From the NCBI RefSeq assembly GCF_001436395.1, contig NZ_AZGJ01000003.1:1-64000 (forward strand): a stretch of 64,000 nt of DNA, written 5' to 3'. The notes below the pieces were generated by a model, which searched no databases, was not told where the DNA came from, and worked only from the letters and a program-made list of their open reading frames with translations. The DNA comes from Secundilactobacillus malefermentans DSM 5705 = KCTC 3548 (GTDB lineage Bacteria; Bacillota; Bacilli; Lactobacillales; Lactobacillaceae). Position numbers and translations under genes: made by a program. How positions within the stretch are numbered: position 1 is the first letter of the stretch; every line of letters begins with the position of its first letter. Below, in pieces: positions 46,197 to 48,532 of this stretch.

Positions 46197-47720
46197 TTAA
46201 AGGTACGTTTCCTTAAATTGATTGATTTTTGGCCGATGGTTACTATCAAATAGAAGTGTCAGCTGATCACCAACAGCGAGGGTTAAGTCACCATTTGCAA
46301 CGAGTTCACGATTATGTCGATGCACACGCGTTAGAATCACGCCGGCGGGCCAGTCAACACCACGAACCTCTTTGCCAGCGATTAAACTTGCTGGTGAGAT
46401 AGTAATGGTGAGTTCATCTAACTTTGCAGCCGGGGTGCTAATTTGATTTTTGAGAGCAATTTGAGAAGCCAGTGCGTTGTAAATTGGCGAACCACCCAGC
46501 CAATCGACCATTAAATAGGCGATTAGCGCAACGATGATGAGGGGCAATAAGTGAATAATTGAGCCCACCATTTCGGTAATGAGGATAATCGCGGTAAAAG
46601 GAGATTTACTGATACCGGCAAAATAGCCCGCCATGCTGACGATGATGAGGTTGGGGATGTACATATTTGGCATCAAATGAAAACTAACGGCAAGCGTCGC
46701 GATTAGCGCACCAATTGCAGCGCCAAGGGCGAGGATTGGTAAGAAAATGCCACCTGGAACGCCCGAACCAAAGGAAATGGCCGAGTAGATAAAGCGGACA
46801 AGCACGACACCGAGTAAAAATAGGAGTGTCCAGCGGTGGGTCCCTAAAAGCTTGATGACGTCGTTTCCTCCACCAATGACGGCTGGCCACAAAATGCCTA
46901 ATGGCCAAATCAGGAGAAGCATAATGCCGCCGTGGTAGCGCCTCGGCAACCATGGAATTTTTGAATAGAGACGTGGCATATTTAACGTCACAACTTGATA
47001 GAGACGTCCTAAAAGACCCAACAGAATTCCTAAGGGGATTAGAAGCCAGAAGTATTGAAGGGGCAGGGTGTGCGTGTAAACGACATCTAGGACGGGTTTT
47101 AGACCGAAGACTTGCTCGGAAACTAGGTCAGCAGCAAGTGCACTACTTAGTGCGCTCAACCAAAGTAAAAGTGAAAAGCTATGCGCGACTTCTTCCAAAA
47201 TAAACATGGCCCCCGCCAAAGGAGCTCCAAATGCGGCTGACAAACCAGCGCTGGCACCTGCAGCAATCATTAACCGCCACCGTTGTTCATCTAAATGGCG
47301 GCCTTCTGCGTACCATTGTCCAACCAGGCTACCCAGTTGAATTGAGGGTCCTTCTCGTCCCAGCATGCCGCCAGAGCTGATCATAAGGACCCCCGCTATG
47401 TATTTGCGCCAGAGTAAGGGGAAAGCCTTGAGTGAAAGTTGCCCTGATAGTTGCAACTCCACTTCCGGAATTCCTGAACCCATAATGTGTGAATGACCTT
47501 TGATGAGGTGCCCAACGATACCAGCAACTAGCAAAATCACAACTAAGAGGAATAGGGCGTTTGGCCAATTAACAGATAGTTGGTACATTCTTTTCCAAAT
47601 GAGGAGGCCGTGCTGAATGAGCCAGCGAAAGGAGCTCACCACAATTCCGGCAAAAAGACCGACTAAGAAGCTGTCGGCCACAATTTTAATTTTTGATCGA
47701 TCAATTTTTTTTCGTTCCAT
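46197..47720 (-). CDS. ClC-family H+/Cl- exchange transporter with TrkA-C domain
   Basis: A 507-residue ClC protein. The selectivity and gating motifs are all present: GSGIPEVE, GREGPSIQLGS (gating glutamate) and GGIFLPILALGAAIGA, and the internal EE of MFILEEVAHSF fits the proton-pathway glutamate of exchangers rather than channels. The C-terminal about 75 residues form a TrkA-C (RCK_C) domain (VRGVDWPAGVILTRVHR) that may bind a nucleotide or ligand. Neither ATG 47720 nor an upstream TTG at 47732 has a strong SD, so the start is uncertain. Possible role in acid tolerance. Confidence 0.9.
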   Translation of the reverse strand: MERKKIDRSKIKIVADSFLVGLFAGIVVSSFRWLIQHGLLIWKRMYQLSVNWPNALFLLVVILLVAGIVGHLIKGHSHIMGSGIPEVELQLSGQLSLKAFPLLWRKYIAGVLMISSGGMLGREGPSIQLGSLVGQWYAEGRHLDEQRWRLMIAAGASAGLSAAFGAPLAGAMFILEEVAHSFSLLLWLSALSSALAADLVSEQVFGLKPVLDVVYTHTLPLQYFWLLIPLGILLGLLGRLYQVVTLNMPRLYSKIPWLPRRYHGGIMLLLIWPLGILWPAVIGGGNDVIKLLGTHRWTLLFLLGVVLVRFIYSAISFGSGVPGGIFLPILALGAAIGALIATLAVSFHLMPNMYIPNLIIVSMAGYFAGISKSPFTAIILITEMVGSIIHLLPLIIVALIAYLMVDWLGGSPIYNALASQIALKNQISTPAAKLDELTITISPASLIAGKEVRGVDWPAGVILTRVHRHNRELVANGDLTLAVGDQLTLLFDSNHRPKINQFKETYL

Positions 47721-47785
47721 AACTATAGTCAAGTCCGTTTCGTGAATAAGCTTATAAATAAGTTTACCACACGCGTGGAAGCTGA

Positions 47786-47941
47786 TTAGGACTTATTTGG
47801 ATTTCCACAATAGCCGTCACAGGCGCACTTATCTTCACTGATCATGGGGCAGTGACAAATACCATCAGAGCTGGCGCAACCACAGCCGGGTTCACAAACC
47901 ATTCCTTCGTGACAATACGGGTTCTTGGTTTCATTCATCAT
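47786..47941 (-). CDS. nine-cysteine metallothionein-like small protein
   Basis: A 51-residue protein with nine cysteines and two histidines in closely spaced pairs: PYCHEGMVC, PGCGC, GICHC, DKCAC, GYC. Spacing CxC and CxxxxxC suits a metal-thiolate cluster, as in metallothioneins, though I see no direct match to SmtA. A good AGAGGTG precedes ATG 47941. The remaining residues are polar with no signal or hydrophobic core, which fits a cytosolic metal buffer. Convergent or divergent genes do not suggest a partner; ClC transporter is downstream on the same strand. Confidence 0.8.
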   Translation of the reverse strand: MMNETKNPYCHEGMVCEPGCGCASSDGICHCPMISEDKCACDGYCGNPNKS

Positions 47942-48037
47942 AAACACCTCTTTCTGATTGTAGTATATAACTTGTAAGTGGATTATTTAACCCAAAATTA
48001 ATCTGATGGGCTTAAACTCAAAGTAGCTGAAATAAAA

Positions 48038-48079
48038 AAACAGCAATCACGGCGATTTAACGCAGCGTGATTACTGTTT
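48038..48079 (-). terminator. terminator downstream of tRNA-Lys
   Basis: 14-bp stem with one mismatch (48038-48051 with 48066-48079), followed by seven T on the minus strand. Confidence 0.85.
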
Positions 48080-48094
48080 AGTGTTTTTATATGA

Positions 48095-48167
48095 TGGGCA
48101 GTCAGGGGATCGAACCCTGGACCCACGGATTAAGAGTCCGTTGCTCTGCCAGCTGAGCTAACTGCCC
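48095..48167 (-). tRNA. tRNA-Lys (anticodon CTT)
   Basis: 73-nt cloverleaf on the minus strand: acceptor GGGCAGT/ACTGCCC, D-arm GCTC-AGCTGGCAGAGC, anticodon loop CTCTTAA with anticodon CTT, T-arm with GGTTCGATCC. Discriminator A; the CCA end is not encoded. Confidence 0.97.
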
Positions 48168-48532
48168 ATATAATTTGCGTTAACAAAACTTGCTCGTTAA
48201 CAACGATAATAATATTACCATGTAGCTTTTAGCAACGCAACACCTTTTTTTAAAAATTCATTTACAATCTCCGTACAATTTGACGACAAATGACCCAAGA
48301 AATGCCGAGTTTATGCGTCAGTAGGTAGTCTGTGCTATAATGACTTTAATTCTAATTATTTTAAAAATTGGAATAAAAATCTATCCTAAATGGCCGAAAA
48401 TGGTGATCTAGGGATGTTTATTCATTCTAGCTGGACGCTCCTGGCAGAGTGACTTAATCGGAATGAGCGAAACGATAATTTGAAATTAAAAATTTAAAAC
48501 GAGAAATGAAAATCCTTTAAGGAGGAACATCC
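48168..48532. promoter_or_regulatory. walR upstream region with extended -10 promoter
   Basis: TGCTATAAT (TATAAT at 48336-48341 with an upstream TGn) is a strong extended -10 on the plus strand, 190 bases before walR, giving a long leader. The tRNA-Lys promoter must lie in 48168-48260 on the minus strand. I see no protein gene or riboswitch here. Confidence 0.5.

Follow-up and report, generated by a model that had tools for sequence, protein, structure and literature searches.

A short cysteine-rich gene downstream of tRNA-Lys

The window analysed here is a stretch of 64,000 nucleotides from Secundilactobacillus malefermentans DSM 5705 (contig NZ_AZGJ01000003.1). On its minus strand, between a tRNA-Lys gene upstream and a clcA-like chloride channel ORF downstream, we identified an intact ORF of 51 codons (Table 1). 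This ORF begins with an ATG at position 47941, followed by a second ATG at 47938, ends with a stop codon at 47786-47788 and translates as MMNETKNPYCHEGMVCEPGCGCASSDGICHCPMISEDKCACDGYCGNPNKS. The product, referred to here as the nine-Cys protein and its gene as the metallothionein (MT)-like gene, contains nine cysteines and two histidines among its 51 residues (18% Cys) and includes three CxC motifs, with a core spacing of C-x5-C-x3-C-x-C-x6-C-x-C-x7-C-x-C-x3-C. The original prediction, which put the protein forward as a candidate metallothionein, had given this location and strand, the two flanking genes, a good Shine-Dalgarno sequence and a composition of nine Cys and two His in CxC and CxxxC clusters, all of which were confirmed by direct translation and reading of the region. 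The claim that there is no signal peptide also held, since no hydrophobic leader was found and the Kyte-Doolittle mean over 15 residues peaks at residue 20 with a value of 0.8. Judged on hydropathy only, the protein is a cytosolic-type sequence with no secretion signal. AlphaFold modelled it with hardly any secondary structure (pLDDT 67), which is what a metallothionein without its metal should show.

A possible -10 hexamer precedes the start of the gene; no clear, good -35 element accompanies it, and the hexamer is absent from the output of the consensus scan. Further upstream, a stem-loop followed by a T run is a likely terminator after tRNA-Lys, and thus the MT-like gene is probably transcribed alone. 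This hairpin is long and stable, yet it was missed by the consensus terminator scan. The genome of the window carries a single copy of the MT-like gene.

Table 1. Coordinates of features in the window and at related loci (L numbers)
Feature	Position	Strand	Remarks
MT-like ORF (51 aa, nine-Cys protein)	47786..47941	minus	intact, stop included
Shine-Dalgarno AGAGGTG of MT-like ORF	47945..47951	minus	read directly
Possible -10 hexamer TATACT	47962..47967	minus	read directly; ~20 bases before MT-like start
Stem-loop then T run, likely terminator after tRNA-Lys	48038..48079	minus	fold -22 kcal/mol, z -6.7
tRNA-Lys (CTT)	48093..48168	minus	upstream neighbour of MT-like ORF
clcA-like chloride channel ORF	46197..47732	minus	downstream neighbour of MT-like ORF
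94-aa partner gene (putative)	L034:5670-5954
94-aa partner gene (putative)	L036:5671-5955
94-aa partner gene (putative)	L061:5508-5960
Thioredoxin-type arsenate reductase gene (arsC), Companilactobacillus	L046:799-1212		TIGR02691 above cut-off
Thioredoxin-type arsenate reductase gene (arsC), Companilactobacillus	L049:5509-5922		TIGR02691 above cut-off
Heavy-metal P-type ATPase	L026:1-1329	minus	membrane motif CPG

Distribution, constraint and mobility of the MT-like gene

Among 301 Lactobacillaceae genomes searched at the protein level, 29, from 10 of 40 genera, carry the MT-like gene, with homologues in other genera reaching E-values down to 1e-22. In a scan of named genomes there were 38 MT-like loci, including those of Levilactobacillus, Lactiplantibacillus, Companilactobacillus, Lacticaseibacillus and Lactobacillus species. 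The gene is also carried by two plasmids, one of L. fermentum and one of L. plantarum. The records of these plasmids, whose gene table is incomplete, list no gene over the ORF, in keeping with the suggestion that it is short enough to be missed by automatic annotation. It is an example of a small gene readily overlooked on account of its size. The proposal of a separate family in lactobacilli also agrees with the searches, as the gene was confined to Lactobacillaceae in the samples covered: profile searches of 295 genomes from the order and 398 from the phylum returned no MT-like homologue from beyond the family, the only exceptions being short matches attributable to chance. Weak phylum-level matches (L077-L079) were rejected as relatives because they are short and partial. 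One of these, L079, has the look of a CxC protein, but it comes from translating a longer gene in the wrong frame.

The original prediction was to stand or fall on homologues with conserved cysteines and on the pattern of codon substitution. At least five named genera have such homologues. None of the nine Cys varies in any of the 40 distinct sequences (40 of 40) and the 36-residue core is free of indels, in cores extracted with a pattern that itself demanded the Cys spacing and that 0 loci failed. Across the 40 distinct 36-codon cores, every Cys codon position switches between TGT and TGC. Met14 and Met33 are likewise invariant (40/40), His11 is present in 38 of 40 cores and replaced by Lys in the two plasmid copies, and the other conserved non-Cys positions are G19, D26 and G27. 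The substitution pattern is of the coding type and indicates strong constraint, with a median dN/dS of 0.04 (41 unsaturated pairs, 0.1<pS<0.6); between the window copy and that of a sister genome, pS is 0.86 and pN 0.07. The MT-like gene is therefore a real, conserved gene, beyond what chance would give, and is under purifying selection.

The gene behaves as a mobile, accessory single-gene cassette. Within the genus of the window it is present in 2 of 15 genomes, and the alignment between the window and the sister genome is limited to the MT-like ORF itself (79% over 117 bases), with unrelated flanks. The sister genome has its MT-like gene away from clcA, and its clcA locus has none at the matching place and runs into what, judged by eye, looks like the end of an insertion sequence at the edge of the contig. 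Linkage between the MT-like gene and clcA was rejected, and the clcA-like neighbour is not tied to the gene, because each of the 15 genomes from the genus has clcA. Contexts of the MT-like gene vary both between and within genera. In a gene tree with too few columns for full resolution, the Lactiplantibacillus copies and two Lacticaseibacillus copies nest among those of Levilactobacillus. There was no phage carriage of the gene in phage records or viral contigs.

Metal-related neighbours and a 94-residue protein

Zinc, cadmium or arsenic genes were found no more than 2 kb from the MT-like gene in roughly five of some 20 separate contexts, compared with a background of 2.4% of positions lying as close to such genes along 1.18 Mb of chromosomal sequence from relatives (binomial ~1e-4). 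This excess is supportive and not proof, because the query genes were chosen post hoc from the neighbours, and deciding which contexts count as separate was our own judgement. A Companilactobacillus-like genome (L018) carries a tandem of the MT-like gene, arsR and a CDF transporter gene, and the same arsR-CDF pair lies about 1.1 kb from the MT-like gene in two other genomes. The ArsR protein of L018 has SmtB, CzrA and NmtR as its best matches, and its segment DDPHILDVINETLEHADH aligns with DDIHVATMLKQAIHHANH of CzrA, retaining the D-x-H...H-x-x-H of the CzrA zinc site. The MT-like gene of C. musae (L050) adjoins arsR and a cadmium-family P1B ATPase gene, a cadmium-family P1B ATPase gene is divergent from it at L026 (genome G130), and L. 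plantarum plasmid NZ_CP020094 has a CDF gene 1 kb downstream. In C. huachuanensis and C. nantensis, arsC precedes the MT-like gene by ~80-200 bp in the same orientation. Neither the window nor the Levilactobacillus loci have any of the tested kinds of metal gene within 2 kb of the MT-like gene, and CDF transporters are not enriched in MT-positive genomes (4/29 vs 50/301). Searches upstream of the MT-like genes for CopY, CzrA, AdcR, CsoR, Fur and MerR patterns and for palindromes gave no shared metal-responsive operator.

Further features of these loci were recorded. The heavy-metal P-type ATPase at L026 has CPG (VLGCPGALV) as its membrane motif, where such pumps usually have CPC. An MFS transporter gene is divergent from the MT-like gene at a distance of ~110 bases in several Companilactobacillus (L055, L056, L060 and L018), and regulators of the WYL-domain type are found near the gene in Lactobacillus and Levilactobacillus (L066-L069, L036 and L038).

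In Levilactobacillus, two Lactiplantibacillus and some Lacticaseibacillus, a gene encoding a 94-aa protein lies upstream of the MT-like gene in the same orientation and stops ~15-30 bases short of it. This 94-aa gene was detected in 9 of 301 genomes, including a copy in G277 that matches in two overlapping pieces only, and eight of the nine have the MT-like gene alongside (hypergeometric 3e-9, a value that ignores the relatedness of the genomes). Intact copies were found only directly upstream of the MT-like gene in these 301 genomes. The ninth (L104, genome G053) is a broken remnant with in-frame stops and no MT-like gene beside it, which suggests joint loss. The protein ends in an invariant Cys and its structural model is confident (pLDDT 88); no known relatives were found by sequence, and no neighbour by fold. 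The window's genome lacks the gene. The 94-aa protein may, as a guess, be a metal chaperone.

Interpretation and comparison with known metallothioneins

The mechanisms by which lactic acid bacteria handle heavy metals have been called not well defined (PMC5430759). On the sequence evidence, the nine-Cys protein is very probably a cytosolic metallothionein belonging to a family absent from the Pfam and NCBIfam libraries. We infer metal binding, the identity of the metal and a buffering role; the metal is probably Zn/Cd, and perhaps Cu(I) or As(III). The protein would scarcely fold by itself, with the nine Cys thiolates wrapping a small cluster of soft-metal ions, and the His next to the first Cys would probably join them as a ligand. 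As cellular levels of Zn/Cd-type metals, Cu(I) or arsenite from arsenate reductase increase, the protein may sequester these and so buffer the metal pool, with efflux pumps removing the surplus, and its gene would spread from one lactobacillus to another as an accessory cassette of one gene. A wider reading, of a mobile lactobacillus family independent of both SmtA/BmtA and MymT that works in Levilactobacillus, Lactiplantibacillus and Lacticaseibacillus with the 94-residue protein as a dedicated partner, possibly loading or unloading metal, is a tentative possibility that we consider doubtful. A further MT family in food and gut lactobacilli would suggest that this solution arose again, and it would give genetic access to differences between strains in cadmium tolerance and a clean test of Cys spacing setting metal preference.

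The protein could instead be a Cu(I) metallothionein equivalent to mycobacterial MymT, either as a distant homologue or by convergence, and we judge this unlikely rather than far-fetched. Seven consecutive Cys run parallel in the two proteins, hhalign places three CxC motifs in register, MymT outscores all but 9 of 2000 shuffles, the invariant Met14 and Met33 are possible Cu(I) ligands, and genes for a copper ATPase and for CopY lie 4-7 kb from the MT-like gene on one plasmid. However, 269 of 2000 shuffles with the Cys positions fixed score as well, so that the likeness stops at the cysteines, the hhalign probability is 3%, and the MymT model NF052418 does not match the nine-Cys protein. Moreover, the close neighbours of the gene are zinc/cadmium- or arsenic-type and not copper-type, and a CopY box near the start was not found. 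The arsC genes upstream of the MT-like gene would fit a small arsenite-binding protein that holds the As(III) produced by arsenate reductase, but they occur at two related loci only and the remaining metal contexts are of zinc/cadmium type, making this quite improbable.

Strict spacing and the conserved M14, G19, D26 and G27 suggest one defined structure, as in a small structural zinc protein of zinc-ribbon type, regulatory or other, that does not act as a buffer. Against this stand the patchy presence (~10% of genomes), shifting location and plasmid copies of the gene, the packing of nine Cys within 36 residues in CxC clusters, and the lack of a confident AlphaFold fold or a PDB structural neighbour, and we regard such a role as very improbable. 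There is hardly any likelihood that this small, Cys-rich protein is a disulfide-rich secreted peptide resembling a bacteriocin, given that the invariant Cys count is odd, that it has no leader or hydrophobic stretch, and that no transporter or immunity-like gene is common to the MT-like contexts.

The metallothionein reading can be set against the bacterial metallothioneins named in the literature, which are essentially of two kinds, SmtA/BmtA and MymT (PMC7387436, PMC12193353). Full-text literature searches gave no prior description of a lactobacillus metallothionein; an earlier account in subscription papers is possible. The nine-Cys protein had no match in Pfam or NCBIfam even at E = 10, no Pfam metallothionein model, eukaryotic ones included, matched the family, and the PDB held neither a sequence match to the profile nor a structural neighbour by fold. 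The original prediction had seen no match to the SmtA/BmtA pattern, and we agree: PF02069 matched none of 25 family members and nothing anywhere in the window's genome, and SmtA was aligned by hhalign over one column, with 625 of 2000 shuffles scoring equally well. As positive controls, SmtA scored 75 bits against PF02069 and MymT 99.6 bits against NF052418. Because of the shuffle scores and the lack of a profile match, membership in SmtA/BmtA or MymT is unsupported, yet the build looks metallothionein-like and the spacing MymT-like.

MymT resembles the nine-Cys protein in its length of ~50 aa and its three CxC motifs, whereas its spacers are each exactly one residue longer (7/8 vs 6/7), giving C-x4-CxC-x7-CxC-x8-CxC against C-x3-CxC-x6-CxC-x7-CxC. 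Compared with MymT, the nine-Cys family has C-H-x-G-M-x-C as an N-terminal addition, together with C-x3-C at the C-terminal side. SmtA/BmtA proteins are of similar size, and the SmtB/CzrA-type ArsR beside some copies recalls the smt locus, but their Cys order is unlike that of the family. With eukaryotic metallothioneins it shares CxC richness and folding that is expected only with metal. The ligand set of nine Cys and one His is also that of the Pseudomonas SmtA/BmtA protein PflQ2MT (PF02069), which forms Zn3Cys9His and Cd4Cys9His clusters (PMC7387436). This yields a concrete prediction, that the Cys9His set of the nine-Cys protein would hold three Zn or four Cd ions.
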